This document shows positions 19,133 to 59,264 of a stretch of 64,000 nt of DNA, piece by piece (positions within the stretch are counted from its first letter, which is position 1; each line of letters opens with the position of its first letter). The notes under the pieces were generated by a model, which ran no database searches, had not been told where the DNA came from, and was given only the letters and a program-made list of their open reading frames with translations. Both the position numbers and the translations under genes were made by a program. Origin of the DNA: Apiotrichum sp. Y4204 (taxonomy: Eukaryota > Basidiomycota > Tremellomycetes > Trichosporonales > Trichosporonaceae); NCBI GenBank assembly GCA_025531455.1, contig JAMYHL010000086.1, forward strand, positions 91,960 to 155,959, given 5' to 3'.

Positions 19133-22100
19133 ATGTCCGAGCCACCGACAAAACGATTCCGCGTAAGCTGACTTATCCAGGCGAATATCACAGCTGACAG
19201 CCAGTATGCGACGTACAATGAGAAGCTGAGCAGCATCTCGGTGGATGTCGGGAAGCGCAAGGGGATGGCGTGGGAGAAGGAGGAGTTTGGAGAAGAGGAG
19301 CAGAGCGTGAGTTGATTTGCTGTATTTGAACTGACAGCAGAAAACGCCTCTCACGGTTGAGCTCGCACGCCTCGAGCTGCAGGACCTCACGCTGCCGTAT
19401 GTCGGCCTCGCCAACGCGATCTTCCCCCTCTCGCGCACGCTTCCCATGACGCTCCTCAATCTTCCTCCCATCTTTGAGACGTTTGGCGACTTCTTCGCGC
19501 GGCTGAAGGAGGGTCAGACACATGTCGACTCGGGCCTCGACTCGGCCCTCTTCCTCCTCCAGGCGCTCTTTGAGACCGTCCTCGGTGAGGCGGTCGCGTA
19601 CGTTCCCGAAACTGTCGGAAATCTTGTGCGTGTCGGTGCCCTCCGCGCACTAGAGCCCAAGCTCGTGGAGCGGACATACTCGACTCTCTCGCTCGTCCTT
19701 CGCACCATCTCGCCCACGCTTCTGAAGGCCGAGAACGAGCCCAAGCTCCGCGCAGCATGGATTCAGGTCCGTCCCTTCCTTGGCTTCAACAACAAGGCGT
19801 ATGTTCGGAAATGTATTGCCGACGCGTGGTCCGGCGTCATCCGCAAGGCACGCAGCGACGCCCTTCAGCGCCTCATGTCGGTGCTGAACGAGGAGCACAC
19901 GCCCGGTATGGAGGCGGTGTGGACAAGCGCGATGAAGGGCACCACGCACCACCTCCACTCCCGCGCCGTGCCGATCTTCACGGTGCTACTCGATGAGCTT
20001 GCCGCAAACCCCACTGATGAAGCTGTCGCTACCGTCCGCCGCTCAGTCACCGCGATCGTACACCACTGCTCATCCTCCAACACCGCTCCGCTCATCGAGC
20101 TCGTCATCGCCCGCGTCGCGCCGCAGCCTGCTGCGTCGAGCTCAAAGAACAAGGCGGCACTGGGCTTTGATGCCTCTTCTGCCATTCTCGACATTCTCTC
20201 CACCTTCCTCTTCACCCGCAAGGGCAAACGCTTTCCGTCGTCGCAGCTCAAGCCGGCGATGAACAAGCTCCAGACCTTGGTCCCCGAAGTAAAGACCGTG
20301 TCCGAGAGCGACGACGCAAGCACCTGGCGCCGAGCAGTCGTGTCCGCTGTCGTAGGAACCCTCACCGCTGGCCATCTCGCCGAATGGCTCAGCCCCGGTG
20401 TCGCCCTCATCGAAGCGCTGTGGAACGCCCTCAGCACCCCCGAGGCATTCGCCTTTGCCAACATGTGCATTGCATTCAAGTGGGCCGGCGTAGAGCAGTT
20501 CCTCCTAGCGCACATTGCGAAGGCGGCCCTCACCGGCCTCAAGGACGATCCCCTTCCGACTCTTGTTCTCCTGAACAACCTCGCTGCCGCGGGTTTCCTC
20601 ACTGGTGGATTGAGCAACGTGCAGGGTGGCCGCTGGCGTGCAACTCTGGTCAAGGCGCTCGGTGAGCGTCTTGGCGAGATCCGTGAAAGCGCCCTTGATG
20701 TGCCGGAACTTCGCCTCCTTGGCCAGGTTCTCACCCTTGTCCCTCATCTTGCGGGCGAGGGACCACACTTTGCGCCTCACCTCCTCGCGATCCTCGACCG
20801 CGTCACGTCCTCGAAGGGCAAGAAGGCTCATGGTCCTGCGAATGCCGAGGCCGCACAAGATGACTTCGTCAACGCTGGAGTGTGGAATAACTCGCACATT
20901 GTCGGTCATCTTCTTGCCACTCTCTTCCAGCTCGCCCTCCGCGGGCCGACTGCCACTCAAGACGAGATCAAGGCGCATTTTGAGAACCACAAGCTTTTCG
21001 ACACTCTGCTCAAAAACTGGTCGTGGAGCCACGAGGTGCTTGAGCAGACCGCGGAGTTTGTGGGACTTTGGTCGGATTCTGTTTCGTGAGTTAGAGAAAT
21101 AGGAAGAGACAACTGACATCAGTCTGAACGACAGTGTTCACCTCCTTCCCGCAAATCTGCTATCTGCCGATTCGTCGCTGCGGTTATCCTCGCTCAAGGT
21201 TCTTGCCGTGTCGAGTCGCGACGCATCGCCCACTTCCGCGGCCATCTGGGATCTCTGCATCGCGGTCGAGCAGTCCGAGATGACGCTTAAAAATGTCCGC
21301 GAACGCACCACCCACATTGGCCGGCTTGGTCGCTACCTGGCAGGCCAGACAGATCCTACAGACGACGTATCCGCCACAGTGAACGCCGCCATCACATATC
21401 TCATCGCGCAGCTCAAGGTCAACTTCCGGCCAGTGTGGGCAGAAACTGTCACGCAGCTCAATTCTCTCGTCCCAGCGCACGCCGAAAAGATCTGGACGAT
21501 GGTATGGAACGAGCTGCAGAAGACGATTGTGGCCGACAAGGCTGTCCTCCCAGACCTCGGACTGACTAACCCCGCGTGGATGTCGCAAAAATTCGAGGCT
21601 GAGGCCGACGACGGGGACGACGACGAAGAGCATGAGTTCCGCTGCACTGCGCTTGCCAAGGGCCGCGCGGCTGTCACCCGCACCTGGTCCGAGAATAATG
21701 ATACCACCAAGCTCGATGTGGCTGAGATTCCCGTGAGCTCATTTGTGCCCTGATGGTAGCTGACATCAGGCCCAGCGCTCTGCCGACCGTCTCGATGTCC
21801 TCAGCTACGAGACGCAGCTGCTGGCAGTTCTCACTGCTACACCTTCGATGGCAGAGAAGCACACGCGTATGATTGTCCCAGTTGTTCTCGCTATTGCTGG
21901 TGCGGAATCGGACGCCGACGTCGCGGTGGATCACCTCTCCACCCGCCAGCTGCAGAATCGCACAATCAGCTTCCTCGATCTTCTCGCAAAGTTCGTGAAC
22001 CCGAAGGCAGCTTTCCGCTCCGCGGAGCTGCACGAACTATATTTGTCGCTCCTCGCAAAGGGCGAGCCGAAGGTGCAAAGCGTGGCGCTCAAGTGTCTCA

Positions 22101-25100
22101 TGACATACAAGTCGCCGAACCTTACTCCATACGCAGAACGCTTGAGCAATCTGCTTGAGGACTCAAAGTTCCGTGACGAGCTTGCACACTTGGACTTTGG
22201 CGCGGAGTCGGAGCTGATCGAGCCGCCACACCGCCCGGAATTCCTCGACGTCGCGATCCGCCTCCTCTACGGCATCATGATGTCCCGTCGTGCCCGCAGT
22301 AGCACAGCGCAAGGCCAGGGCGCAAGGAAGCAGGCCGTCCTTACTGCCCTCTCTGGCGCTAGCCCAGAGGAGCTCAAGACCCTCGTGGATCTCATGCTCG
22401 AGCCGCTTGGTGGCCTCGAGGATGCGGAGCCTGCTGCCCTCGACAAGGTCACTATTACCGCCCCCGGCCGCCAGCAGCTCGGTTTCCTTACCTTCCTCGC
22501 TGATGTGCTCAAGTACGTTGGCCCGCAGACGTCTCCCTACTGGCCGCGGATTATGGGTGCCACCATTGTTCTTGTTCGTCAGGCGCAGGAGGCGATCGAC
22601 GCCGAGGCGAACATCAAGGATGATGAAGAGGCGGTAGAGGAGGAAGACGTTGACGAGGAGGACGACAAGGGCGCCGCTCCTCTCCGCTCCATTCGTTCCA
22701 TCGGTCTCAAACGCATTGTGCAGTTCCTTCGCTTCAATGTCATCGAATACGACTTTACCCCCTACCTTCCCGCCCTCTTCAAGGGTGTCATCTCGCCACG
22801 TCTCGCTCGCCTAGACGTAGAGAACACTCAGGCACCGAGTGGTACTCTCGACGTTATTGCGGCCCTCTGTGCGTCTCCCGACACGGCCACCGCTCTGGCC
22901 AACTTGGACGAGCGCACCCTTCCCAAGACATTTGCGTGCATGACCGCTGTCAAGGTCAAGCCGCCTGTCATCCTCCGCGTGTTCGATGTTATTGACTCCC
23001 TTCTTGAGGAGGAGGACACAGTGCAGACTGTGCTTCTTCCGCATGTCCGCTCTCTGATTGACAACATCATCGAGCTTGTGGCGTCGCTCCGCGCCAACGC
23101 CAATGAGGACATTATGCGCCGACTCCTCACTATCCTCTCCCGACTCAGCGCCGTCGTCACCGACGGCACCCAGGCGCAGCAGCTTGCGACCCTCCTGGGG
23201 CCCATGCTCCGCCAGCCTGGCCGTCAGGTACCCGAGAAGGCCAAGGTCAACATTCTCGTCACTCTTCAGCGGCTGTACAGCATCTCGCCGGATTTCAAGG
23301 ACCCGACCTCCAAGTTCTTTAGCCAGAACTACGACATGATCTCCAACCTCTTCCAGTCGCTGTATCTCCCCACGTCGAGACGCGCGCTCGTCGCCGCGCT
23401 GGAGACGTTTGGTGAGGCAGACGCATCGGTGGTCGAGAGCATTGCGCTCGTTGCCAATCTGAACGCGTACCGCGTCAAGCGCATGGATGAGCCTGATTTC
23501 GACCGCCGTCTGGACGCGTTCGCGCGCATCAACGATGCCGCAGACGAGGAGCTCTTCACGACTGCCCGCCAATGGCTCCCGATCATCCGCTCAGCTCTGT
23601 TCTTTGTCCAGGATCCCGAGGAACTGTCGCTTCGTACCAACGCGGGCACGCTCCTCCGCCGCTTCATCTCGCTAGCGGCTGGCGAGGAGGGTCCTCTTGT
23701 TGACACCGTCCAGGTCGTCATTCTTCCATCCTTGCGCCGCATCCTGCTCTCTAAGATTGAGCTTGTGCGTAACGAGGTGCTCCTTGTGCTCTCCCACGCG
23801 GTCAAGACTTCGGCTCTCCCCGTGCTTGTCGAGATGAAGCCGCTCCTCGGCGAGGACGACGAGACGAACATTTTCGTCAATATCGCGCACATCCAGGTAC
23901 ATCGTCGTGCGCGTGCCGTCCGCCGTCTGAGGGACATCGTCTCGGACGAGGAGGTGACGATCCGTGAGACTACGCTCGCCACCATCTGGCTGCCTGTGCT
24001 GGAGCACATCATTTCCGGTGCCACAGATGTCACCGATCACCACTTTGTCAATGAGGCCATCACTTCCATTGGTGCCCTTGCTGGCCGACTGTCATGGGGC
24101 CGCTACAACGCACTTTTGATGCGCTTTATCCGCCTCGGCAAGCCTACCTCCAAGCAGCAGAAGTTCTACATCCGCTGCGTGTCAAGCATCATTGACAACT
24201 TCCACTTTGACCTCAAGTCGGATGTGCGTGTCGGTGACGCGGTCGATGATGATGCCGAGGTGGACAGCGACAAGACTCTGGCCGACAGCGAAACGACTTT
24301 GGCCGATTCAGCAACGCTTGCTGCCGAGTCGCTGATTGTTGAGCCGCCCGTGAACCCAGCTGAGCGCATCACCGAGGTCGTCCTCACGCGTCTTCTGCCC
24401 ACTCTTGAGTCGTTCGTCAGCCAGAAGAGCGAGACAGAGGATACGGTTCGTATCCCCGTGGCGCTTGGTATTATCAAGCTTGCTAGCCAGCTGCCCACCG
24501 AGTCGAGCGACAACGAGATCCTCCGCATTGTCACCACGGTGTCGCAAATCCTTCGCTCCAAGGACCAGGACACGCGTGATATCGCGCGCGACACCATCGG
24601 CAAAATTGCCGTTTTCCTCGGCCCGACCTGGCTCGTGCGCGTACTGCGTGAGCTCCGGACGGCACTTCAGCGCGGCCCCCAGAAGCACGTACTCGCAGTC
24701 GCTGCCCACAGCATCTTAGTGCATGCGACAACCGAGGCCGCCGACCGGTTTTCCGACCTCGACGCGGCTATCACTGATGCGGTCGAGATTGCCGCTGAGG
24801 TCATCTGGGGCGAGAGCGGCAAGGACACGGCTGCGGAGGGCTTCAAGACCAAGATGCGTGAGGTCCGCGGCGCCGCTAACCGCGCCAACGACACGTTCCA
24901 GCTCGTTGCACGCCTGTGCTCTCCCAGCAAAATCTCAGCCGTGCTCGCACCCGTCCGTGAGATCATGCACGTCTCGCAGGCCGTCAAGACGATGCTGCAG
25001 GTCGATGAGGTGCTCCGCCGTATCGCGCTTGGCTTGAACGCCAACTCGATGATCGCGCCGCAGGACATTCTCAACCTCTGCTTCTCGCTCATCAACGGAA

Positions 25101-27341
25101 ACAGCCGCTACCTCAAGCCGAAGAAGAAGGAGGCTAAACAGGCGAAGACCAAGGCTGACCGCTTCACTGTGCAGATGAAGCGCAAGGCCGATGACGAGGA
25201 GGACATGTACCCGCAGAACGCGTACAAGTTTGTCTCCTTCGGTCTCGAGCTCTTTGTTACCGCGTTCCGTCGCGGCAAGTTCGACTTTGAGAATGTGGAT
25301 ATTCTCGCCCGTCTGGGGCCGCTCGTGAACGCCATCGGTAACACCCTTTACTCGCCCAAGGCAGACATTCTCATCCTCGGTCTCAAGGCCACCGCCGCAG
25401 TTGCACGCTGCCCGGTGCCGCAGCTGGATTCCGCCCTGCCCGCGTTTGTGACCAACATTTTCAAGATCATCAAGAATGCTGGTGGTACCGCCGAGTCAGA
25501 GGTCGCCCAGACTGCGCTCAAAACCCTCGCCGTTCTCATCCGCGACTGCAAGGCGACGCAGGTATCCGACTCGCAGCTCAAGTACCTCATTGAGGTCGTC
25601 GGCCCTGATCTCGAGGACCACGAACGCCAGTCGGCAATCTTCACCGTGCTTCGTGCGGTCGTCGCACGCAAGTTTGTCGTTCCCGAGATTTACGACCTCA
25701 TGGACCGCGTCTCATCCATTATGGTCACGTCGCAGAGCACGCACGTGCAGGAGCTCTGCCGCGGCGTGCTCATGCAGTTCCTCCTCGACTACCCGCAGGG
25801 CGCTGGCCGACTCAAGGCGCAGATGACGTTCCTCGCTCGCAACCTCGATTATGTGTTTGAGAGTGGTCGTGTCTCAGTCATGGAGGTCCTCTCCGCCGTG
25901 TTCAACAAATTCTCTGGCGAGCTTCTTGCGGAATACGCCGACCTCTTCTTCGTCGCGCTTGTTGCTGTCGTCGCGAATGACGAGAGCGAAAAGTGCAGGA
26001 ACATGGCCGGCGCTCTCCTGCAGCAGCTGTTCGTGACTGTTGACGAAACACACCAGACGAAGATGCTGGGTGTTCTGAAGTCGTGGGTTGGTGGTGACGA
26101 CGACGCCCTCGCTTCCGCCGCGCTGTCCGTGTTTGGTCTCCTGTGTGAGGCCGAGGACGCGCCGGAGGACCTCTTCACCCAAGTACCTGCGGTCATCAAC
26201 CCCGTCCTTCGCTCCAGCGCCACTACGCTCGCCAAGGCCGAGGCGGCAGGCGACGATGACGCTGTTTTCTCTATGGATCATGCCCGGCCGCAGGCTGCGC
26301 TGGCTGTCGCTGCCAAGGCGATGCGCGCACCTCGCGTTCCGGACAGCCTGCGCTGGCCGGATATCGTCGCCCACCTTCTTTTCCCCCACCAATGGGTCCG
26401 CTTTGGTGCTGCACGAGCTCTTGCCATTCTCTTCGCCACTCGCCCTGCCGGTGGTTCCGACCATGACGCCATCTCCCTCCTTGGCCAGGACCTCCTGCTC
26501 GACATTGCGCGGAAGAGCTGCATCCTCCTCGGTGGCAGCAAGGGTGCCGAGGGCGAGGACGTTGTCGTCGATGCCAAGCTCGCGGATCAGTTGGTCAAGC
26601 TCCTCTGGAACATCTCCAAGCACTGGGCGGCATCGGACCAGAGCACCGACGAGGAGCTCAAGGCCAAGCTGGAGGCGGAAGACGATGATGAGGGTCAGGA
26701 AGAGGACCCGCACGCCCGCCCGCTCACATGGCTCATGTCGCGCACGTCCTTCCTCGCCCGGCGCCTCATCATCAACCGTCCCAATGCCAACGACACGCTC
26801 CCAGGACAGCCGCTCGAGTGGACCGGACCCGTCATGTCCATTTTGCGGTTCTTTGCTGGCGTGTTCGAGGCACTCTCGCCCAAGCAATCGCGCCAGTTCC
26901 TCGTTCACATTCTCTCTCCCATTTACCGCATCCTCGACGAAAACGGAGACCTTGTGGGCCTCGAAGGCGCAGGCGGAATTGGTACGTACACAGGTAATAT
27001 ATTCGGAGCAGATACTGACTTTTCAGATGAGCTTCGTCAGCTCGCCACTGAGGTTCGCGACCACGTGCAGAACAAGGTTGGCACCACGACCTTCAGCAAG
27101 ACATGGGAGAAGCTGCGCCGCAAGGTCAGCGAGAAGCGCGCCGAGCGTCGCGAGGCCCGCTCCCGCCTCGCTGTTGCGGACCCACGCGCATGGGCGCTTC
27201 GCCAGGAAAAGCGCAGCGCAAACAAGAAGGAGAGCAAGAAGCGCAAAGTCAACGCGTACATGTGAGTACCTGGTGACGGTTTGCGCTCGACAGCTACTGA
27301 CCATCAGTGACCACAAGCGCGCACGCCCGAAGCGGGCATAA
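19133..27341 (+). CDS. UTP20: UTP20, U3 snoRNP / small-subunit processome scaffold
   Basis: This huge HEAT-repeat protein of the small-subunit processome is needed for 18S rRNA maturation in the nucleolus. Seven exons (19133-19162, 19205-19306, 19341-21085, 21123-21732, 21770-26981, 27027-27261, 27308-27341) sum to 7968 nt, 2655 residues, in the usual range (about 2500-2800). Recognition rests on the FLGFNNKAYVRKCIADAW block near the N-terminus, KRIVQFLRFNVIEYDF, and REMRGAANRAN-like and WLPVLEHII-type segments. The C-terminus is a basic coiled coil with nucleolar-type runs (KKESKKRKVN). The 45-nt intron at 26982-27026 is a multiple of three, so retention would keep the frame; its GTACGT donor and CTGAC branch favour splicing. 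The 5.2 kb exon 5 is the longest open stretch in the window. Confidence 0.93.
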
Positions 27342-45768: not shown

Positions 45769-45842
45769 AGGGCCCAAGATGACTCTAGAGAGCATCATCA
45801 TCCCGAAGACTTTTTCCCGGCCCCTTACTTCACTCTTCGACC

Positions 45843-47419
45843 ATGTCGTTCGACAACAAGTACAACCTCACACCCACCCAGATCGCTGCGTTTGAGCGCG
45901 ATGGGTATCTTATGCTCCCCGATGTCCTCAGCCCCGAGGAGACCAAGGACTTGCAAGCCTGGACCGCCGAGGTCAAAGGCTGGCCCAACCGCCCTGGAGA
46001 GCACATGCCATATGAAGAGGTCCGCTCCGACGGCACTACCGGTCTCTGCCGCACCGAGAGTGAGTTGACTGTCACCAACGTTGCCCGCATGAGATTGACG
46101 CAAGACTATGCCAACTTCCATCCCGGGTTCGGCGCCCTGTTCCGCGGCGACCGGCTTACTGGTATTCTCAGTACCCTCATGGGCGAGCCAGCCGTCCTCT
46201 TCAAGGAGAAGATCAACTACAAGGAAGCCGGTGGCTCGGGAGGTTTCGACGCACACATCGACGCCGCGGCGTACAACCATGCTGGTGCCGTGAAGCACCA
46301 AACGTTCCTCATGGCCGTTAACGACATGGACATGACAAACGGTTGCCTTGAGGTCGTCCCTGGCTCTCATAAAGAGAAAATCCCTCTCGGCAGCAACCGC
46401 GTGAGTCTCTCGCTTTCATTTTGGATCACCACTGACCTCAGTGCATCGACCCAGAATGGGAGGCCAAGCAGCAGTGGGTGCCAGTACCCATGCCTGCAGG
46501 TGCCCTCCTGGTCTTTGGCTCCTATCTTGCGCACCGCTCGGGACCCAACTCGTCGCAGAGGCCGCGTGCCGCTATCTATGCCACGTACAATGGTATCTCG
46601 GAGGGCGACAAGCACGACTCCTACTATGCCCACCGCCGCAAGGCGTGGCCCCCAACTGCTGAGCGCGTCCCTGGTGTCGACTACACTGAAGGCGCTCTCA
46701 CGTATGCGTTCGGCTCGCCCATGACTGGCGGCAAGGAGATGATTGACGCAAAGCTCGGGCAGGATAAGGCGACCATTGACAAGCTTTTCAACATGATAGC
46801 CGCGTAAATATCAATCTGCTCCAACTTGATACGTGATGAATTGTTACTGAAGCTCGCAGGCAGGGTGACGCCGATTACATCGGCGAGACAATCAGTCAGC
46901 TGGAGCACTGCCTCCAGGCTGCCGCGCAGGCGGTGTCGGCTGGTGAGTGTGAACATTGGTCCTAGCCTGACGTAAGGTGCCGACGACGAGACGGTGGTTG
47001 CTGCTTTACTTCACGATGTCGGCCAGTTTGTGCCCCACTCACAAGCCAAGGAAATGATGCACGAGGGAGGCAGTCTCGGAAAAATGTCTCATGAGGCCGT
47101 AGGGGAGAAGTACCTTCGCGACCTCGGCTTCCCAGCCAAAGTGTACACGCTGGTCGGCTCACACGTCGTCGCAAAGCGTTACCTTACCGCCGTGCAACCG
47201 GGGTACTACGAGTCGCTGAGCGGCGCGTCACAGGCGAGCCTCAAGTACCAAGGCGGCCCGTTCAATTCTACACAGGTGGATGAGTTTAGGAAGGACCCTC
47301 TTCACAAGGAGAAGGTTCAGCTCCGGCTCTGGGATGACGGCGCAAAGCGCGACGGATGGAAAGTACCAGGGCTGGAAGCCTATCGTCCCGCGATCATGCG
47401 TGTGTTGGAGAAGGCATAA
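45843..47419 (+). CDS. PhnY-PhnZ fusion: phosphonate 2-OG dioxygenase plus HD-domain oxygenase
   Basis: Four exons (45843-46400, 46442-46803, 46860-46942, 46977-47419) close in phase at 1446 nt, 481 residues. Residues 1-~300 are a phytanoyl-CoA-dioxygenase-type Fe(II)/2-oxoglutarate enzyme like PhnY, with metal ligands H138-x-D140 and H217 and an arginine (R226 or R228) for 2-oxoglutarate. Residues ~308-481 are an HD domain matching PhnZ, the mixed-valence di-iron oxygenase. From memory of PhnZ numbering, Y24, E27, H34, H58, D59, H80, H104, K108 and D161 correspond to Y313, E316, H323, H347, D348, H373, H397, K401 and D454; all spacings are identical except a 4-residue insertion before H373. 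In bacteria PhnY hydroxylates 2-aminoethylphosphonate and PhnZ cleaves the product to glycine and phosphate. The HD part has no ATG before its key residues, so it cannot be a separate gene. A TAA spans the second donor, so unspliced RNA would yield PhnY alone. Confidence 0.88.
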
Positions 47420-47602: not shown

Positions 47603-48875
47603 TCACTGCTTCACCGCACCGGTGCAGCGCGACATACCAGGTTCAACAAACTTGACGCTGGAGGACGACGAAGCTCCCGCGTTGACACCTTGATCGTTGG
47701 TTGCGGAGGTACTGTTCGAATTGGTGCTATTGCTGCCCGGAGGGCCGCCCTTACCGGAGGGACCAGTACCGTTAGGAGGGTTACCACCTGGCCCACCACC
47801 ACCACCCATGTTAGAGTTGGGGTTCGCGACGCCGCCCTCCTCGCCGTACTCCATGGCAGGTTGGACAGTGTAAGCGGCGGTGGAGTTGACACCGACCGAA
47901 ATCCACCCGAAGAGACCGTCCGCAATAGTGTCACCGAGGAGGACGTACTCCATCACGGGATCGATGCCGTCAGACTCCTGGGACATGATCATGTCGTCTG
48001 TGTTGAGCGTGAGGGATTGGTTGTTGGACGAGTACGGTGCGACCGCTGTAACCTGGGTGATAAGATCCTGGTCGAAGAAGAGCTGGCCAACGTGGGAGCT
48101 GTTTGTACCGCCCGTGATGGTGTTGTTCGCAAGCTTCTGCCAAGTACCCGCCGTGTGGGCAAGCATGTGGATGTGAGTTGCACGGCCACTGTAATGTCCG
48201 GGGAACACGGTGTGAAACTGCACTACGCCCTCATCGTTCGTAGATTGAATGCCGCGCAAGAAGGTCGTGTTGGCGTTGGCCTCACTGCCGTCTCCGTTGC
48301 CGTGAGCTACGACACCTGAGTAGACGCCCATCGCGTTGCAGTGCCAAAAGTCGAGGGCGGCTCCCGACAGTGGCTCGCAGGTGTTGATGTCGATCAGCTG
48401 GATGTCGAGATAGAGCTGGACGCCTTCCTGATCCTCCCTCACATCCGAGCGCATGTATTCGCCAGTGACGTCTAGGAGAATGAGCCACTACACTTGTTTA
48501 CTTGCACTTACAGTATGGACCTTGCGTTACCTCGGGAGCCAGCACGCACTGGTGCTCGCTGCCAAAGATCTCGCTTGCCGAGGTGGTGTTTGTAATGCCG
48601 GTAGCATTGGACTTGTGGTTCATGGCGACCACCGAGGCAAGGTCGCGCTTGTCAGCGACCGAGCGCTTCGAGAACTTGTGAAACGCGGCGCGGCGTTCGA
48701 TGTTGCGCTGATACACGCCACGTGCCGCAAGCTTGTCCGTGCAGTGCGACAACGAGCGGCGGCCGATCATGTTGAGGGATTCAGCGCGCTGGACGGCCTC
48801 CAGGGCGTGGTCCTCACCCGGATGGGCTGTGGCCAGCGCCGCGAGCAGGAGGGTCATAACTGGTTGAAAGAGCAT
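47603..48875 (-). CDS. Secreted intradiol ring-cleavage dioxygenase-like protein
   Basis: This family of Fe(III) enzymes opens catechol-type rings; secreted fungal members act on lignin- or plant-derived phenols. Two exons (48875-48512, 48471-47603, 40-nt intron) give 410 residues. The start gives a signal peptide (MLFQPVMTLLLAALATAHP). A propeptide-like region follows, then the conserved core: VLAPEVTQGPYYVTGEYMRSDV with the first tyrosine, DFWHCNAMGVYSG, and PGHYSGRATHIHM with the remaining iron ligands and the arginine. The C-terminal ~85 residues are Gly/Asn/Ser-rich, like a disordered wall-associated tail. It converges with the PhnY-PhnZ gene across 183 bp. Confidence 0.9.
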
Positions 48876-48944
48876 TGTTGATGAGGAACTATGAGTGTCG
48901 ATGAGGGAGTGTGAGTGACTTCATTGTCAGATCATCTAGCGACG

Positions 48945-48953
48945 TTTATATAT
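48945..48953 (-). promoter_or_regulatory. TATA-like box of the intradiol dioxygenase gene
   Basis: Reads TATATAAAC on the minus strand, about 70 bp upstream of the start codon at 48875. Confidence 0.55.
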
Positions 48954-50161
48954 CTTGCCGACGACACCCAACGCCGTCCGGTCAATGCAGTTGGCATACT
49001 ACTCGTTCCGTTATCCAGTTCTCATAATCCACGGTTGAAGAATGTATGTGATAACTCGCGCTCCGCTGACCGCGGCACAGTCTGCCGGCGCGCAGTTATT
49101 GCGTGGGCCGCTATAGCCGCCGATAGCCACTGACATCGTGCTCGCCATGCCGCTACCCGAAAGCGAGTACAGATGAGGTGAGCCAGATCAGAATGTGGCA
49201 AGGGTCGATGTGTTGGGTTTGCAGCTCAGATAAGAAGGTTAGTAGGTTTGTGTTATGCTTTGTCGCGGCGCAGTCCAACGGTTAAAACGCGGTGCCGAGC
49301 GCGGTGAGGAGTCAGTACTGTGGGGAACGATGATCACCGAGCTGCGGGTCGGGCGTACGTTTCGCAGTTGCGTGATAGCCGGTGGAGCTGGTGTTCAAGA
49401 AGGTGGCGTCCAATGGCCGCACGTGAATATCCAAGATGTGGGTGTTTCGTGTCAAGTGTTGAAAGCGACGCGACGTGTGACTGGTATTTTTAGCTGCTCG
49501 ACAACCCGGCGCAGCAAACTGCACCTTGGCATCGGCTTGGCGACCGCGCATTGATTGCGATACTGCGTCGGCCAGAAGCTTGCATTTATGAAGGCAATGT
49601 GAGGGTCAAACAGAAGACGACCCAGAGACATCATGTCGAGGAGCAGGTGGAGCATGCCCGAGTTGGCGGCGAAGGCCTGTCAGCTGGAGCGGTGCTCGAT
49701 TGCGGACGCACAATGTGCAGAGAAGACATCATCGCAACTTTGTTAGAGGATTGGTTTGATTGGACCGATTGAGATCACCAGCGAATGCGCAGCTGTCAGG
49801 CTGCGGGACAGATTGTTCTTTGAGCGAGTCCAGGCCTCTGAGAAAGGGTCGAGAAGTGAGAGGAAATAAACAGAATGTCGCCATCTGCCGGCTGTCGGCA
49901 TTTTTTGAGGTACAACATCGGTGAATTTACGGACAGACTGCACATGGAATTACCCGATGCTCACCAATCCAGCCAACTCATGCAATCCACCTCGTTGACA
50001 GCATCCACATGGCCCACACGCGGCGGGGCGCCAAGCCGGAGCTAACAGTGCTGCCGGCCGAAACATTCCAGGCGCCGAACGCGATTGCCTGATGCCTGAC
50101 CGACTTGACGAACAGGTCCGATGCCAAGACCCACTAGGCGACTCACCATCTCGGCCGCTAT

Positions 50162-50170
50162 CTGATAAAA
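50162..50170 (+). promoter_or_regulatory. ATCTGATAA iron-GATA-type site before the MFS exporter
   Basis: Exact match to ATCWGATAA, the consensus I recall for fungal iron-responsive GATA repressors of the SreA/Urbs1/Sre1 type. It lies 150 bp upstream of the MFS start. Binding is inferred from sequence only. Confidence 0.5.
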
Positions 50171-50319
50171 AGAGAGAGGAAAAGTAGTACGTTGCAGTCG
50201 AACAAGTCAGTGATGACTCAGGTTGATACATGTCTACATGCCCAGGATAAGTGGTACAACGTTCACTGATATGTTTGCATCTCTTCTTCTACTCATACCA
50301 TCTCCATCGACTTTTCCCG

Positions 50320-52252
50320 ATGAGCAGCCGCGAGGGACGGCGCACGAGCGCAACAGACAGCGACCGCAAGTCTACCGATAGCAGGTCCCACAAGTCTTCT
50401 CGCAGTGATACCAATCGTGATGTTTCCGTTTCAGAGACTCCAGAGCTGCGTGCGGTTTCCGCTGCCCCTACAGGGCCACCTCAACCACCAGCCGAGCTAC
50501 CACTCTTGCGTCGAGCGCTACTGGTGGCAATTACCATGTTTGTCATTATTCTTGGTGCAGGTGGTCAGCAGGGGCTTAACATTGCTTTGCCCTCAATGAA
50601 AGAGGAGCTGGGGATTGCCCAAAACGACTTGCAATGGGTGTCCAGTGCCTACGGTCTGGCTTCGGGGTGTTTGGTCCCTCTCTCCGGTCGCCTGGCCGAT
50701 GTCTACGGTCGCAAGACGTGCTTTATCCTCGGCATTGGATGGTACGCCATTTGGAATCTCATAGGAGCTTTCCTCCATAACCGTATCGGTGTCATTGTGA
50801 CACGCGCACTTGCAGGAATGGGCGCTTCCATGGGGTGAGTAGACGTCTTAGATGTTTTGCTGACCACAGCGCACCGTCCGCCTTTGGTCTCATCGCTGCC
50901 AACATCCACGGAAAACACCGTGCCACCGCTTTTGCAATCTTCAGCGCGGGTGCGCCCCTCGGTGCGGGAACGGGCATGGTCCTTGGTGGGGTGTTTACGG
51001 CGTACACGACGCCGACCTGGCGGGCGGTGTTGTGGTTCTTTTCTGGCCTTGGGTTCCTTGCAACTGCGCTCGCCTTCGTTTTTGTCCCCAAGGACAAGAG
51101 GTCAACACACGACGGTCGCATCGACTGGCCCGGCGCGGCACTTGTCACCTCTGGACTTGTGCTCTTTCAGTTCTCAATCAGTTATGGCTCCAGTGCTCCG
51201 AAGGGCTGGAAGACTCCATGTAAGCCGCCAATGTCCGGATGTGGGTCCCCCTAACCTTAGATATCCCCGCCTTGTTCTGCGTCTCAATCCTGCTCCTAGC
51301 TACATTCTTCTGCTGGGAGTATTATCTTACACAGCATACCACCCGCCCTCCTCTAATTCGACTGGCACTCTTCACACGCGCAAAGGGTCGCCTCGCTGCG
51401 ATGTACGTGGTCGGCTTTACAGCCATGGCAGGTTTCGTCAGTATCGGATTCAACGCGACGCTGTTCTATCAGGTGAGCTCAGGCGTTTGTTTATTCTCTA
51501 ACGCTGCTCAGCAAGTACAAGGTGCAAGTGCAATGACAGCAGCATTGCAGTTCTTACCGTGTATCGTCTCAGGCCTGATTGCAACACTCTCCCTGTCCAA
51601 GCTCATCCACATTATTCCGGGACAGATCATCATCTGTACGGGATTCATTTGCACAGGGTATGTACAAAAGGGCTACCACTATTGACACTCAGTATCTCTG
51701 CCACCTTTTTTGCCGTCTCGAAGCGAGACCAGCTGTACTGGACGTTTCCGTTCAACGGCATGTGGCTCATGGTCATCGGCGTCGACTTGCAAGTTCATGT
51801 TCATTAGCTCGGCATGCTGACTTTAGCCTTATGGCAACTGGCGCGACCTTTGTTTCGCGTCTTGCTCTTCCCCAGGAGCAGAGCGTTGCCGCCGGTAAGT
51901 CCACCGAAGTTTTCCCTTGCTGACCAATCCAGCCCTCTTTCAGACAATTATGCAGCTCGGCGGCGCGCTTGGCCTGGCGCTTACATCTGTCCTCGCCACT
52001 TCGGAGCGCGAACGTGCCCTTGCGAGGGGGAAAGAGTTCATCGATGCCCTTCATAAGGGGCTACAGGCAAGCTTTTGGCTGAGCGCTGCACTCAACTTTG
52101 TGGCTTTCCTCCTGGCTCTGGTCGTCCTCCGCGGCATGGGGATCGTTGGAGGGCCGCCCAAAGGGACAGGATCTCCCCCTACTAAAGTCGGACCACAGCA
52201 GCCAGAGACATCATGTGGGGCGGAAGGGTCAAAGGCTGATGAGAAGGTTTAG
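50320..52252 (+). CDS. MFS drug:H+ antiporter-type transporter, candidate siderophore exporter
   Basis: Seven exons (50320-50834, 50870-51219, 51261-51472, 51512-51657, 51693-51788, 51827-51894, 51933-52252) sum to 1707 nt, 568 residues. The N-terminal ~60 residues are Ser/Arg-rich and cytoplasmic. Typical DHA features follow: ITMFVIILGAGGQQGLNIALPSM in helix 1, LQWVSSAYGLASGCLVPLSGRLADVYGRK with the loop 2-3 motif, and about 14 hydrophobic segments. The fifth intron (51789-51826) has a GC donor (GCAAGT); it is the only placement that keeps frame. Export of drugs, toxins or siderophores is typical for the group. The iron-type GATA word upstream and the siderophore synthetase 2.7 kb downstream favour siderophore export (inference). 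It lacks clear similarity to SIT-type siderophore importers, but an importer role is not excluded. Confidence 0.88.
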
Positions 52253-52821
52253 ACAGTGGTCGCATCTTTATGTATGCAACCTTCCCACTTCACATGCGTT
52301 TAACAACATACACAAGCTCTCGGAACGTCCTTGCCGACATCCAACAAGTTCATTTGACAAGTGACTGATTCGCTGAGGCAGCCCAAACGTCTGAGCGCAG
52401 CATTGTTTCTCCAGCATGCTTGGCCCGCCCTTCGATGCTCGAGGTTTATTGAAGTTTGAGCATTACTTATTACAATGCAGCAACAGCCGCACTCAGCAGG
52501 CACCAGGTCTTGGCAAAGCTCCAGACCCGCGTTGCAGTCCTTCTCGTATTCTACATTCGGTGTCGCGTTATTCAAGGTTAAGTTCGTTGTGTTCGTTCCG
52601 CGAGCAATTAACGCCAAAGTCAAGGCCGATGTTGCGTCCCGCGCATGAGGCAGCCTAACCACCTCTTCTTCTCATGTGGCTACGAAGGGACGCTGCTCTT
52701 AAGCTTATTATCTACATGCTTCCTCCCAGGCCGCATTCAAAATGATTGAGAGATCGGTTGTCTATATAAGCCGCCGCGCACGGGACAGCAGAGGCCTCAC
52801 GAGCCACTCTCTCAGATCAGT
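52253..52821. other. Intergenic region upstream of the thaumatin-like gene
   Basis: 569 bp. No gene is seen. It ends with a TATA-like box at 52763-52769, and TAGATAATAA (minus strand) lies near 52708. Confidence 0.5.
52763..52769 (+). promoter_or_regulatory. TATA-like box of the thaumatin-like gene
   Basis: TATATAA about 53 bp before the start codon at 52822. Confidence 0.55.
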
Positions 52822-54345
52822 ATGACAGCGCCCAAAACCGCCGTACTGAGTATCGTCATTGGCCTCTTGGTGGCGCTAAGCCTCGTGCAGGCTCAACGGT
52901 ACAACATACGTGTCGCGATCACCAACAATTGTGTTCGCACCATCTTTCCAGCCCTCAACTTGAGAAACACGGGGTGGACAGCCGACGAACTCCATCCCGG
53001 CGACAGCAACTCGTGGTCTTTGGCAGGCGACGTTACTAATGACTTGCATATCTGGGCTCGCACAGAGTGCCGCAACATCAACGGTAGCTTCAGCTGCCTG
53101 ACTGGCGACTGCGGTGATTCGGCCAGCCACATCAAGTGGTGGTATGTTTTCTCGCAATGGGAAAGTTGAAGCTGATGGCAGCAAAACTGCGCCAACCGGT
53201 CCTCGCACTGAGGGTATGAGATCGTGTTCTTGATACAACTGACGGGCAGTTATTCTGAACCTATCGTCTTTGTCAGCGCCTATAAGGGACACTTACTACG
53301 TATCGCTGCTAAATGGTAAGTTCTCCCCTTTGGGTTCTCGGATTGCTCTGACTCGGCAAGGCTTCAACCTGCCTGTCAAGGTGGAGCCCAGGGGTTCCAC
53401 CTGCCCGATCAAAGGCTGTACAGCAAACGTCAATGCCGCCTGTCCGGCTGAGCTGCGCGCAGCTCTAAGCGCTGGTGGCATCAACTATGGCTGCCAAACA
53501 TCCTGTCAAGCAGGCTGGGGCGAGGACTCCCTAGGTAACAAAGAGTGTTGCACCGGTGAGCTTCACAAGCTCACAGTGGTTGCTCACCTGTCAGGCGCAT
53601 ATGCAATGCCCGCTGGCGCGCAGGCCCAGCGACTATGCAACAATGCATGTGTCGATTACAATGACTTCTGGCGAGAGCAATGTCCCGACGCAATCATGGT
53701 AAGAGAATAAAGTAGTAGCGGCCATTCTAACCACAGTTCCGCGACCAGTTGCAGTGGGAGGCCCTGGACCAGACCTGTGGTGATCCCGTCTTCACGTACG
53801 CCATCACTTTCTGCCCCAATGGCCCCGTCTTTGCCGGCCGAGGCCCAGAGGGGGTATCGGCGACTCGTCCAGCGCTTCCCGGAAACAACACTGCAACTTG
53901 CCACAACTATGGTCAAGGATCGTCGACAGCTGTGGCCGGTACCACTCCAGCTCCGTCCAGTACGGGCACCCGTGTTGTTGAGGATGAGCAGACCCAGAGC
54001 AACCCCGCAGGAGCCAACACTGTAGTAACGGCGACATTCACCGCCGTAGTTGCGACCGACACCGTTGAAGCCTATACAATCATTACGGTGTGCTTGCCTC
54101 CGCCCAATACGGAGTGCTACCCTTCCCTTGCCACCTCAACAACGACGCGAACTCGTGCTCTCACGTGGGTCGCCACCTTGGACGCCAGTGGCAATTGCGT
54201 TGCGTCAGTCACTTTCTCAGAGTCGGTTCCCACACTGGAAGCGTCTGGAGGCGGTAGCGAGACACCGCCAGCTTCATCGTTAGGGCCAACCCAAACTTCC
54301 GAAGCACCACCGGGAAGCACTGGATCCACTCGGGTTCAGTCTTGA
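52822..54345 (+). CDS. Secreted thaumatin-like protein with Ser/Thr-rich tail
   Basis: Six exons (52822-53141, 53182-53213, 53250-53315, 53361-53555, 53595-53698, 53737-54345) give 441 residues in exact phase. There is a signal peptide (about residues 1-24, VLSIVIGLLVALSLVQA). Thaumatin-family landmarks follow in order: ITNNCVRTIFPAL, LHPGDSNSW, IWARTECRN, CLTGDCG, YYVSLLNGFNLPV, CPAELRAALS, ECCTG and EQCPDAIMF, with many cysteines at family spacing. Family members bind or hydrolyse beta-glucans and are secreted or wall-bound. Residues ~290-441 form a Thr/Ser/Pro-rich tail without a clear GPI signal. It sits between the exporter and the siderophore synthetase; no functional link is evident. 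Confidence 0.88.
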
Positions 54346-54902
54346 GTCCCTCCTCGTTGAAGCACGCCAATAGCACTCCGAGCACCTCCGGCCCCCACTT
54401 TCTCCTGAGGCCTCGGAACCAGTTAGCAGCACTGCGTCACCGTCGGACCCGGTCACCGCTTGTCCACATTGCGCCTCCCGACGCGACTGACCAGCTGGCC
54501 CCGTTTGACGGCGAGCTGGCGACACGCCCCGTAGGAGTGGTATTGGCACAGAAGTGTGAGCTGTACGTAGCGATGCGATGTGGTCGGCTTGCTTTCTCGC
54601 TTTTGCTTCCCTCCTGTCCGTGTCGTGATCGCCAAATCGGTAGTAAATGGTTGTAGTAAACAGGAGCAGTTTCATTTGCATGAGATGGTCAGATTTTGAG
54701 GGCAGACAGTCATCCCATACGAGCACTATTGTAGCTTTGATTCTCCTGACTGTGGTGAGGCTTCCCACTATCTCAAGTTTACCACACTGATGACGATGGA
54801 GTGCGAACACCTGAGGCTGCATGGAAACTATGACTGTACGTCACATGTCGCGTTGTGCGGCTCTCAAAAAGGGGACACACTTCATAAACACCCAAACCTC
54901 CA
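54346..54902. other. Convergent spacer
   Basis: 557 bp between the 3' ends of the thaumatin-like gene and the siderophore synthetase. No gene is seen. Confidence 0.5.
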
Positions 54903-57900
54903 TCAAAAGAGCTCCGAGGAACAGTAGAGGGGATTGGCGCAGTCCACGTAACAGTCCCCGGCGGCTGGAACCACGCGCATAGTAAGAAGCGCCTTGTGCT
55001 TGAGGGTCGGGCCCAGGAGGACTTGCAGGTCGTCATCGGCATTCTTGGTGCACTCGGCGTCTGCAACGCTCACAAACGACTTGTGGACGCTCAGGAGTTG
55101 CCGCCGTACACAATTCCAGAGGTTCTGTCGGCTTTTTGCCGATCCGTCGATCAAAGCCTCAACCACTTCGGATAAGTTCCCAAACACCACAGCGTGTGTA
55201 AACTTGTTGTATACGGCCTGCGCGTTGGGAGTAAGAATGAGCGACTCGTGGTGCAGAGTAATGTCGGTGTTTGCGCCAGAGGAATTAAAACGGCCCGTGT
55301 GGACTCGCACTCCACCGAGGTCACGGACTAGCAGCCTCGTGGGGCTTCGATGAGATCCAACGACAATTATTGTGTTCTGCAGGTGCGATTCGAGGGCGAT
55401 ACCATTCCTCCACAGCAATGGAAGCGTTGCCGACCAAACGAGATGGCTGTACCCGCTCAACCATGCAAGGGCAGCCTCCGCTGAAGGCATCGCGGAAGTC
55501 CGAGCCAGGTGGTCAACAAGCTCTTGCACTACTGGTTTTCCTGTAATAGGGGAGACAGCGACGAGGGCAGCACCGCTAATTCCCGTCTCGTCAGGTTCAA
55601 GATGGTTTGTAAAGTCGGAACGAATCACAGCCGACAATCCCCGAGAGCGCTTCTCCGAACCCGCCCCGTCCTTGGGCGAGAAGCAGATACCGGCGAGCTC
55701 CTGGACTGCCGCAACTCGTCCGTGCGTCAATGGCCACGCTGTGAAGAGCTCTGACAGCAGTCGAGTCATCTGGGGGCCATTGGAGATAGTGGCTGGAGAG
55801 ATGGTTCTCACAGTGCTCGTAATCTGCACATCGATTGCTGTCTTGATGGTTAGATGCTGTCCGAGTACTCCGGGCGCGGCCGTTATGAGGGTTCTCGTCG
55901 AGACGGTCGGGCGAAAGGCGATCTGAACTTCCGGAAGCAACACCACTGTCTTTGCGGAGATCTCGTTGGCATAGTCGCGGGGGATTGCGTTTTTGGCTTG
56001 CCATGGGTGCACGGGAATAAACTCGTACTCTACAGCCTCGAGCTTTCGACGAACAAGTCCCTCAGCGGCTGCCGCGATAGTGTGAGGGTAGTGGAGAGCC
56101 AAGACGCCACCGACAGAGCGACCGACATCGTCCTTGCTCGAGGATACCAGCGACCGATGCACGGCCACGAGCTGAAGACCGACCGTTGGGCTAAACTCTG
56201 GGGCATATGCGATCGAGTCGGCGGGTGTGAAGCCGGTCCGGGTGCGTCGACACGGATGCCTGCGGTGTCCTTCAATACAGAGAGAATCAAGATCGATGTG
56301 GAGATCGCTGGGTGTCCTGTTTCTGAGAGTGTCGAGAATGCATTGAGTGTTGAAGACCTCGGCCTTCAGACGCAAGGATTGCCCTTGGAGTTCGCCAGAC
56401 GCCCGAGAAAGAGCCAGTTTGCATGCAGAATCTGCGAGTTCGGCCTGCACTCGTTCCCACTCTGCTGTGTGTCCAAACGCCTCGGCGTCACAAGCATCCA
56501 ACCCTTCCTGGGCCATTGCGCGAAACTGGTCCTGAGCTGTGTCGGCGCGAGCAAAAGGGAGAGCGCTCAGCCAACCTTCCAGCAGCGGAGAACACTCCGC
56601 TTGAAGATGCATCCGCATTCTCTCCTCCGGCGCGCGGTGTTTGATCGAAGGGGGTTCGGGAATCGGTATCGCTTGGACAGCCAATGTGGCGAAGGGATTG
56701 GCCGACGGGGTATACATTTGCTCGGTGACTGCGCCCGCGAGGCGCATGGCGACAAGTGTCTTCCGTTTCCATGGATGCAACAAAAGGGCGTCCGCGTCTG
56801 CCCGTGTGTCTGCCGCTTCTTCGGCACATGTGCCAGTGCGTTCCAGGTAAGAGAATGTGTCTCTCACTACCTGGGCAACAATGCCCCACAGTTCTGTTTC
56901 CTCACAGTCGACCGCATGCGCGATAGCGGAAACGACTTCGGCGAGATGATTCCCGAATAACGGATAGTATAGTTTAGATCGGAGGATGGCGGGATCATCG
57001 GTAACGAGTCCAGTGTCGCCTTCAAGATGAACACTGTAGCCCCGTCTCGCCAGGCGATGTGGCATAACCCGGGCGCCACCAAAGTCTCGGACATAGACGC
57101 TGTGCGGTCGTGCATGTTTAAGGATAAGCACCATGTTTTGAGGGTGAGGCTCGAGTGCAATGCCGTATCGAGTCATGAGGGTAAGGTTTGCCGGAACAGC
57201 GATGGACGCATAAGCGCGAATCCATTCGTAGGCGACCTGGCGTACTGTCGTCCCCACCGTTGCTGAAGCGTGGCATTCCGCAAGAATGTCGGCGATAATC
57301 GTATTGTTGGACGTGCTGAGGGGGTTGCGGGCGAAGAGCGCCGCGATCGGCAACGCAACTTCGTCTGGACCAAGCAGATTCTCGGGATCTTGACGGACGA
57401 GGGAGCCCAGGGCGCGCTTGCTTCCACGAAACGCAATGCCCGCAAGCTCCTGTGCCACATTGAAGACACGTCCGCCATGCTTGTTGACCAGCGCAAGATC
57501 GAGATCGCTCTGCAGGATCCTGGACAAGAGCCGAGAAATACGGGGGCCATTGTGCACGGATGTGGTAGACACGCCGCGGACGCAGCCTGTGAGCTGTACC
57601 TCAAGGGCTGTCTTGATGTGCAGCGTCTGCGCACCCTTAGCAACCATGGAACGCAGTGACATGAGAGGAATGGCGGGAACCGTTGCATTAATGGGAATCA
57701 CAGTGTCGGAAGCGAGTGCATCTGGATGCAAGTGGGGCAGTGCATGCTCGAGTTGGTGCGGATGGGTCGGAATCAGTGCGTAGTCGTCCATGGACAGCCC
57801 GAGGCGGCCAAGTTGTTCTCGACCCGACATCACCACATGTGGGAATGCCGCCGAAAGCAAGTCCATCATGGTATCTGTGCAGCATTGGGGCCCGATAGAG

Positions 57901-58616
57901 CTCGGGTTGGGGTTGCACGACTTTTTCCACTCGCCACCGCTTTCCCCGACGACATGCTTCTTGTGAACCGCGACGAAGCGCAGACCGATGGTGACACCAA
58001 ACTCCGGAGCGAAGCGTTGCGCGTCGGAGACCGACATGCCGATCTTGACCTTGGCGCTGGGGCTCTGTGGATGTCCGTCGATAACCCACTGTTCGAACCC
58101 AGCTAACGCGTGGGGGCCATAACCGGACCGAGTCAGAGATTGAGCCAGAGACGTGAACGGAGCCCCCGGAATCAAAATGGCCAGATTGCGCAGCTGTTGA
58201 GCACGGTGGTTTGCGGAAGCGAGGGCTCTTGCCAGATTCTGGGTACTGTTTGAGACCTCGACACTCAACGTGTCCCAAGAAGCCCACGGCGGGAGAAGGT
58301 CGAGATTGCGAAGGCTTTCCAAAAGGTCGGACGGAGACTTGACACGGCGGTCGTTGATTACAATGGGGGACACGAGACGCAGTCGGCTGACCGTGGCAGG
58401 GGCAATGTTTACGTGGATGCCTTTGGCGGCGCAAGCGCGCAGGTCCAGAAGATTCTCAGTGACGAGTGCAGAGACGAGGCGTTCCACGATTGATTCCTCC
58501 GCAGCGCATAGGTCGTTCGTATTGATCTCATTGTCGTTCTGGCAAGCAACGAAATGTGTGGCGTTGTCCTTGGCGGAACAGCCATTCTGGCCTGGAATGA
58601 CTTTGAACGAAGTCAT
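54903..58616 (-). CDS. Two-module NIS (IucA/IucC-type) siderophore synthetase
   Basis: A single uninterrupted frame of 1237 residues. NIS synthetases adenylate a carboxylate, usually citrate or 2-oxoglutarate, and couple it to an amine or alcohol. Two full copies are in tandem. Module 1 (about 40-645) has GHPQSPSAKVKIG at 181-193, IPTHPHQ at 282-288, LHIKTALEVQLTGCVRGVS at 332-350, HNGP near 355, and the FhuF-like end EPHPQN...VRDFGG at 489-514. Module 2 (about 665-1237) has GHRRHPCRRTRTG at 783-795, IPVHPWQ at 867-873, STRTL at 906-910, LTIKTAIDVQITSTVRTIS at 922-940, SNGP at 945-948 and ESHLQN...VRDLGG at 1076-1102. Module 2 keeps the canonical STSxVR-like ATP/carboxylate site; module 1 has TGCVR there. 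The start at 58616 is the first ATG of the open frame. Absence of introns in 3.7 kb, beside multi-intron neighbours, suggests acquisition from bacteria. No peptide synthetase, hydroxylase or targeting signal is attached. Confidence 0.9.
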   Translation of the reverse strand: MTSFKVIPGQNGCSAKDNATHFVACQNDNEINTNDLCAAEESIVERLVSALVTENLLDLRACAAKGIHVNIAPATVSRLRLVSPIVINDRRVKSPSDLLESLRNLDLLPPWASWDTLSVEVSNSTQNLARALASANHRAQQLRNLAILIPGAPFTSLAQSLTRSGYGPHALAGFEQWVIDGHPQSPSAKVKIGMSVSDAQRFAPEFGVTIGLRFVAVHKKHVVGESGGEWKKSCNPNPSSIGPQCCTDTMMDLLSAAFPHVVMSGREQLGRLGLSMDDYALIPTHPHQLEHALPHLHPDALASDTVIPINATVPAIPLMSLRSMVAKGAQTLHIKTALEVQLTGCVRGVSTTSVHNGPRISRLLSRILQSDLDLALVNKHGGRVFNVAQELAGIAFRGSKRALGSLVRQDPENLLGPDEVALPIAALFARNPLSTSNNTIIADILAECHASATVGTTVRQVAYEWIRAYASIAVPANLTLMTRYGIALEPHPQNMVLILKHARPHSVYVRDFGGARVMPHRLARRGYSVHLEGDTGLVTDDPAILRSKLYYPLFGNHLAEVVSAIAHAVDCEETELWGIVAQVVRDTFSYLERTGTCAEEAADTRADADALLLHPWKRKTLVAMRLAGAVTEQMYTPSANPFATLAVQAIPIPEPPSIKHRAPEERMRMHLQAECSPLLEGWLSALPFARADTAQDQFRAMAQEGLDACDAEAFGHTAEWERVQAELADSACKLALSRASGELQGQSLRLKAEVFNTQCILDTLRNRTPSDLHIDLDSLCIEGHRRHPCRRTRTGFTPADSIAYAPEFSPTVGLQLVAVHRSLVSSSKDDVGRSVGGVLALHYPHTIAAAAEGLVRRKLEAVEYEFIPVHPWQAKNAIPRDYANEISAKTVVLLPEVQIAFRPTVSTRTLITAAPGVLGQHLTIKTAIDVQITSTVRTISPATISNGPQMTRLLSELFTAWPLTHGRVAAVQELAGICFSPKDGAGSEKRSRGLSAVIRSDFTNHLEPDETGISGAALVAVSPITGKPVVQELVDHLARTSAMPSAEAALAWLSGYSHLVWSATLPLLWRNGIALESHLQNTIIVVGSHRSPTRLLVRDLGGVRVHTGRFNSSGANTDITLHHESLILTPNAQAVYNKFTHAVVFGNLSEVVEALIDGSAKSRQNLWNCVRRQLLSVHKSFVSVADAECTKNADDDLQVLLGPTLKHKALLTMRVVPAAGDCYVDCANPLYCSSELF

Positions 58617-59255: not shown

Positions 59256-59264
59256 ATCTGATAA
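59256..59264 (+). promoter_or_regulatory. ATCTGATAA iron-GATA-type site upstream of the NIS synthetase
   Basis: Second exact copy of this word in the window, 640 bp upstream of the synthetase start and on the opposite strand to the gene. Further GATAA words lie 160-180 bp beyond it. Binding is inferred. Confidence 0.45.

Follow-up and report, generated by a model that had tools for sequence, protein, structure and literature searches.

A predicted two-module NIS siderophore synthetase in a basidiomycete, with relatives in Orbiliales, actinobacteria and a liverwort

A gene for a nonribosomal peptide synthetase (NRPS)-independent siderophore synthetase, or NIS synthetase, lies in the 64,000-nucleotide stretch of Apiotrichum sp. 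Y4204 DNA analysed here (contig JAMYHL010000086.1; hereafter the window), next to a thaumatin-like gene and a transporter gene of the major facilitator superfamily (MFS) (Table 1). Its frame opens with ATG and runs for 1237 codons without a stop, an event with a chance of about 6e-19 when base composition alone is considered. A first-pass annotation, made from the letters of the window, had proposed two complete IucA/IucC-type modules in this one polypeptide, and both Pfam families indeed match it in two stretches, PF04183 with 387.4 bits (whole-protein E 3.4e-116) and PF06276 with 192.9 bits (whole-protein E 6.9e-57). PF04183 followed by PF06276, both above their curated cut-offs, places the protein in the NIS superfamily. 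The motifs read by the annotation recur in both modules (GHP/GHR, HPHQ/HPWQ, IKTA...VR, NGP and RDFGG/RDLGG), its coordinates for the gene are correct, and its limits for the modules (residues 40-645 and 665-1237) agree with structure models, in which both modules take the NIS fold. Two modules, not one, score as NIS synthetase in the profile check, and the halves are 29% identical to each other over 550 aligned positions, gaps included. The two IucA/IucC-FhuF repeats in one chain correspond to the layout of CiuE and separate the protein from the single-module Rfs-type synthetases of fungi, while annotated single proteins of 1190-1210 amino acids (aa) in 11 Orbiliales favour one gene over two. 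Judged by sequence, this basidiomycete gene encodes a single chain with two complete NIS modules, both probably active.

Table 1 Features of the synthetase region, in window coordinates
Feature	Position	Strand	Evidence or location
Tandem NIS synthetase gene of one exon, encoding 1237 aa	54903..58616	-	open frame; PF04183 x2 and PF06276 x2; full-length homologues
Module 1 (residues 1-655), IucA/IucC and FhuF-like region	56652..58616	-	
Module 2 (residues 656-1237), IucA/IucC and FhuF-like region	54903..56651	-	
ATCTGATAA, SreA/Urbs1-type iron GATA motif	59256..59264	+	~640 bp upstream of synthetase ATG
ATCTGATAA, same iron GATA motif	50160..50168	+	150-160 bp upstream of MFS ATG (50320)
Multi-exon MFS transporter, candidate exporter, exon limits approximate	50320..52249	+	MFS_1 matches
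Thaumatin-like gene between transporter and synthetase	52750..54342	+	PF00314 in 52750-53166 and 53243-53707

The active sites were compared with AcsD, whose letters S279, R281, K293 and R305 were verified against its printed row and whose E442 and H444 were placed by eye in MEPHLQN. In AcsD the acceptor amines are contacted by E442, with R501 and K563 directed towards the acceptor; H444 and R305 had been mutated in earlier work (PMC3323832). Equivalents of S279, R281, K293, R305, E442, H444, Q446 and N447 are present in both window modules, as S320, R322, K335, R347, E489, H491, Q493 and N494 in module 1 and as S906, R908, K925, R937, E1076, H1078, Q1080 and N1081 in module 2. Those counted are conserved in 26 of 26 rows, save E489 (25/26); R908 and N946, which stand outside that count, are invariant in a 24-row alignment. 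Of further motif positions, Q288 is conserved in 25/26 rows and T926 in 23/26.

Relatives were sought in two protein searches, each of which scored only about 8000 word-sharing candidates. The search with the whole protein returned 13: 10 from Orbiliales (1190-1210 aa, 40-42% identical to the window protein), two actinobacterial and one weak archaeal. A search with an eight-sequence alignment returned 27, including 10 from Orbiliales (one new), nine full-length actinobacterial relatives with one partial, and five proteins of single-module length, four of them from Actinopolyspora. Combined, the searches yielded 11 Orbiliales and 10 full-length actinobacterial tandem proteins. Two of the 27 are tandem proteins of the liverwort Calypogeia fissa (1282 and 1241 aa) on contigs of 46.8 Mb and 25.0 Mb. 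These two (P0021 and P0023) are 96% identical and represent a siderophore synthetase of bacterial type within the genome of a land plant; in P0023 a G replaces the catalytic E of module 1.

A scan of GTDB contigs gave six loci. Four carry a fused gene (two in Kutzneria and one in each of two Amycolatopsis), the locus of Actinopolyspora biskrensis has two genes side by side, and that of Actinomadura rubrisoli has a gene for one module. At the Actinopolyspora locus (L010) the stop of the first gene ends at 9887 and homology to module 2 begins directly after it. Where named, the split and single-module relatives are bacterial or archaeal. Among 394 genomes of the same class, 155 had a PF04183 match and, among the matches listed, none formed a within-frame pair as judged by open-frame length; known fused loci do appear as such pairs. 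A tandem profile, for which at most two candidates per genome were scored, matched in 123 of the 394, and only the genome at the centre of the sample, with its split genes, exceeded 170 bits. These scans suggest that the tandem lineage is rare among the same-class actinobacterial genomes. Viral contigs yielded no relative, one stretch fitting a pattern but encoding none. Searches for DUF6533 and HET gave no match, nor did they give one in any control, and they carry no weight. A pSymA stretch (L014), taken for the rhizobactin enzymes, carried no annotated features, held no frame of at least 300 aa matching the NIS profile at E 1e-3 and was not used.

The module tree comprised 63 of 79 prepared rows, eight tandem proteins (16 rows) being left out. 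The 79 included 12 of the 25 actinobacterial background loci, besides L020 and L021; L019, L030, L047, the fused loci L006-L009 and the proteins P0028 and P0029 were left out of the rows, and the partial P0025 was never used. One clade (Shimodaira-Hasegawa-like approximate likelihood ratio test, SH-aLRT, 99) unites 16 module 1s with four single-module proteins, and a second (SH-aLRT 100) unites 16 module 2s with one single-module protein. Module 1 of the window protein falls in the former and its module 2 in the latter, which assigns it to this lineage. The first gene of Actinopolyspora, like that of Actinomadura, groups with the module 1s, and its second gene groups with the module 2s. Because the module clades separate, the two modules are old and distinct, and the fused and split states share their gene order.

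The concatenated tree (26 rows) sets the window protein and the 11 Orbiliales proteins on one side of a branch with 100/100 support, and 12 bacterial rows with the two of Calypogeia on the other. Four alternative positions of the window protein, among the bacteria or with Calypogeia, were tried and rejected (approximately unbiased, AU, test; p 4.6e-12 to 6.5e-5). Given this split and these rejections, the fungal copies stand beside the sampled bacterial copies and are not nested in them. The position of Calypogeia, nearer to the fungi or to the bacteria, has weak support (68/32), and the tree program flagged long branches at the window row and an unbalanced letter composition in several others. 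By module, the window protein is 37.8-45.5% identical to the Orbiliales proteins, hardly different from its 37.7-46.1% identity to the actinobacterial ones.

The tandem layout has a precedent in CiuE of Corynebacterium diphtheriae, which is required for corynebactin, a lysine with citrates on both amino groups (dicitryl-lysine; PMC3326035). Like the window protein, CiuE is one chain with two homologous IucA/IucC and FhuF-like halves (PMC3326035; PMC7857480); unlike it, CiuE is bacterial and belongs to a cluster with an ABC-type importer, and the likeness considered here is that of layout. Tandem candidates are also reported from Corynebacterium, Acinetobacter, Streptomyces, Shewanella and Methylobacterium, and since the Discussion of PMC3326035 names such bacterial proteins, the layout was published no later than 2012. 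The first-pass suggestion that the architecture might be uncharacterised thus fails for bacteria, where CiuE had already been described (PMC7857480, PMC3326035), and proteins of the same layout from Orbiliales and actinobacteria were already in databases; for eukaryotes it stands as far as the open-licence literature listed extends, in which we found no tandem NIS enzyme described as such. The kind of synthetase is known from CiuE, and it is the host range that is unusual here.

The tandem proteins of Orbiliales, Amycolatopsis, Kutzneria, Embleya and Kitasatospora are colinear with the window protein over its full length, at about 38-46% identity per module, and belong to the same module 1 and module 2 clades; their function in databases is limited to the family name. 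DhSip1 of Dactylellina haptotyla (Orbiliales) is a fungal NIS product whose 1055 aa exceed the length of one module and whose deletion impairs siderophore production; unlike the window protein, it is credited with one IucA/IucC domain and grouped with a Cladobotryum rfs-like protein (PMC13101506). Cladobotryum is absent from the relatives found in both protein searches, and for its NIS clusters gene transfer has been proposed (PMC10989895). Membership of DhSip1 in the family of the window protein is a lead only. The synthetase Rfs of Rhizopus and the type A' synthetases of Armillaria are fungal and share the IucA/IucC and FhuF regions of the window modules, but are single-module enzymes (PMC10700112). 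Staphyloferrin A synthesis by SfnaD and SfnaB likewise places two citrates on one diamino acid, but with two separate proteins (PMC3326035).

In the transporter region, MFS_1 matches were found in the frames 50251-50835 and 50781-51251 and, weakly and below cut-off, in 51899-52249, with none in the frames 50839-51498 and 51502-51804. The thaumatin-like gene has no evident link to a siderophore pathway. The exact pattern ATCWGATAA occurs at two sites in the window, one upstream of the synthetase and the other upstream of the MFS gene. In shuffled versions of the window it occurred 0.31 times on average, and 3 of 100 shuffles reached two; genome-wide there were 514 sites in 48.9 Mb (one per ~95 kb) versus 129 for the reversed control pattern. 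Four GATA patterns had been tried on the 1.5 kb before the synthetase, with the window average as expectation, and the MFS-side site surfaced only afterwards. In that promoter, ATCWGATAA was observed once versus 0.05 expected, HGATAR 8 times versus 2.4 and GATAA 7 times versus 1.6. The MFS-side site is conserved in a second genomic copy of the region. ATCWGATAA is over-represented before SreA-regulated genes and fits the in vivo sites at U. maydis sid1 (PMC2610380). Among the bacterial relatives, an MFS gene lies directly downstream in two of the six loci fetched (L008, L009), the flanks of the other four having been scanned in part. The second Kutzneria tandem gene (L008) has as neighbours, at 14048-17057, genes for an L-lysine epsilon-oxidase (LodA) and for a ferritin-like protein. 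Elsewhere in the window, at 45789-47416, a PhyH dioxygenase exon precedes an HD-domain exon of the same orientation, a pair that we take to be reminiscent of the PhnY/PhnZ phosphonate pair.

The window forms the end of contig C168 in an assembly of 48.9 Mb and 182 contigs. Its UTP20 gene (21764-27262), compared with the best 120 of 210 records, is nearest among named ones to Vanrija (71%) and to Cutaneotrichosporon and Trichosporon (both 68%), all of which we take to be Trichosporonales; named Tremellales reach 51-61% and Cryptotrichosporon 54%. Among the named records listed, this gene places the host in Trichosporonales (Tremellomycetes, Basidiomycota) and bears out the basidiomycete host of the first-pass annotation. 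The G+C content at third codon positions (GC3) is 0.62 in the synthetase, 0.68-0.76 in five of six other window regions and 0.56 in the first MFS exon; in four fused actinobacterial genes it is 0.83-0.92. The second copy lies on contig C179, where 8.6 kb beside the contig end (113500-122131) are 92.4% identical to window 48054-56589 and residues 676-1237 of the synthetase recur at 93% identity. C179 ends inside the synthetase gene in TTAGGGGG-like, telomere-like repeats, and only module 2 remains; the sole genomic occurrence of three exact tandem TTAGGGGG units is at the beginning of contig C166. Module 2 on C179 is an open frame with a ratio of nonsynonymous to synonymous substitution rates (dN/dS) of 0.23 versus the window copy. 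It seems that a second haplotype or subgenome lost module 1 at a healed chromosome end. Further diverged locus pairs, such as equal kinase matches on C57/C117 and on C93/C172, suggest two haplotypes or a hybrid genome.

On balance we favour, with appreciable doubt, a working two-module synthetase of CiuE layout that gives a bis-citryl siderophore. The paired Pfam matches, the conserved active-site residues, the FslA rhizoferrin profile as the best for both modules, the separate module clades, the dN/dS of module 2, the two ATCWGATAA sites, the CiuE precedent and the MFS genes at two bacterial loci speak for this reading. Each module would bind ATP and citrate, form citryl-AMP and hand the citryl group to an amine, so that between them a single small acceptor would be acylated on its two different amines. 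That one polypeptide carries out both acylations, as the first-pass annotation had suggested, is the most economical reading of a two-module chain; its further suggestion, that the intermediate is not released in between, may also apply. The product would be a polycarboxylate siderophore of the rhizoferrin, staphyloferrin A or corynebactin type. Its acceptor is probably asymmetric, lysine or ornithine and not putrescine, because the modules are distinct and stay distinct across bacterial and fungal members. The decarboxylase of the ornithine/diaminopimelate type that adjoins the lone module 1-type gene of Actinomadura rubrisoli on the opposite strand (L011, 7947-11019) fits a diamino-acid acceptor for module 1, a match that is only suggestive. 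The synthetase is probably repressed by iron through a GATA factor, jointly with the nearby candidate MFS exporter. The gene most likely entered fungi from an actinobacterial-type ancestor, and transfer from an early or unsampled donor of that type is the simplest reading of the trees. The analysis shows the architecture, the conserved active sites, the modelled fold, the family tree and the positions of the motifs, from which activity, acceptor, product, regulation, export and the direction of transfer are inferred.

Several points weigh against this reading. Single-module NIS enzymes can put both citrates on putrescine, and two modules are therefore no proof that the acceptor is asymmetric. 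Among the window frames scanned with Pfam, a minor part of the window, neither an amino-acid racemase nor a decarboxylase turned up. The module tree was built without CiuE and without the characterised type A' sequences Rfs, SfnaB and SfnaD, and it is profile scores alone that point to a type A' grouping. Neither module reaches the 1000-bit cut-off of the FslA profile (NF041038), the full-length structure model (predicted template modelling score, pTM, 0.58) is too low in confidence to give the arrangement of the modules, and [TG]GATAA is little enriched in the synthetase promoter (2 versus 1.03 expected).

Ordinary rhizoferrin would be the product if both modules used putrescine, each in charge of one of the two successive citrate additions, and so split the work of a single Rfs. 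Putrescine is generally available in fungi, and rhizoferrin is the known fungal NIS product. The FslA rhizoferrin profile, moreover, is the best for both modules (190.9 and 172.2 bits; 358.3 for the whole protein), ahead of SbnF (90.3 and 121.2 bits) and SbnC (84.0 and 75.8 bits). In Ralstonia pickettii, however, one NIS enzyme suffices for rhizoferrin, and two NIS components have been argued to be required for an unsymmetrical amino-acid acceptor, with CiuE and the staphyloferrin A pair named (PMC7857480); in the tree, the modules also stay apart in each of the 16 tandem proteins, and we regard rhizoferrin as unlikely. We are more doubtful still that one module is catalytic and the other structural, mimicking a dimer, or that the enzyme makes a citrate-amide other than a siderophore. 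NIS enzymes commonly form dimers, which makes a fused inactive partner conceivable; the second genomic copy retains only module 2 as an open frame, and one Calypogeia protein has G at the module 1 glutamate. Against this stand the catalytic residues conserved in both modules and the effect of deleting DhSip1 (PMC13101506), a possible member of the same family; on this evidence a single active module seems improbable.

As to origin, the fusion could date from an early fungal ancestor and have been passed down vertically, with loss in most lineages, instead of moving horizontally. The union of the window protein with Orbiliales on one side of the 100/100 branch and a GC3 unlike that of actinobacteria agree with this. 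Yet Orbiliales were the only fungi found within the candidates of each search, though Vanrija, Cutaneotrichosporon and Trichosporon proteins were in the same database; the named split and single-module relatives come from bacteria or archaea, and the window protein is hardly closer to Orbiliales than to actinobacteria. We hold vertical descent to be quite unlikely. Bacterial contamination or mis-assembly, suggested by the actinobacterial relatives, was rejected almost outright: the same contig carries the fungal UTP20 gene and genes whose domains extend over several frames, as with introns, the second copy sits on another contig within the 8.6 kb of shared sequence, and the composition of the gene is not actinobacterial.

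Fungal siderophores are mostly hydroxamates from NRPS pathways. For ornithine N-monooxygenase the host genome gave 10 short matches, all above the Pfam cut-off of 21.3, the best with 28.3 bits over 71 of 339 positions; there is no clear SidA among them, a result that we do not read as proof of absence. We put forward tentatively, as a possibility short of even, that a two-module NIS gene of ancient origin, its fusion probably actinobacterial, crossed kingdoms to reach two fungal phyla and a liverwort. In this Trichosporonales yeast it would then be the chief siderophore synthetase, or the only one, controlled by an iron GATA factor and provided with its own exporter, and would make a bis-citryl amino-acid siderophore of a kind not known among fungi. 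The fungal NIS enzymes that we found described are single-module. The tandem enzyme occurs in a basidiomycete yeast, in nematode-trapping ascomycetes, in actinobacteria and in a liverwort. It would offer a clean case for the cross-kingdom transfer of a siderophore pathway, with both states of the fusion displayed by the adjacent-gene form of Actinopolyspora, and, as a single gene free of introns, a route to a bis-citryl siderophore open to direct expression and assay.

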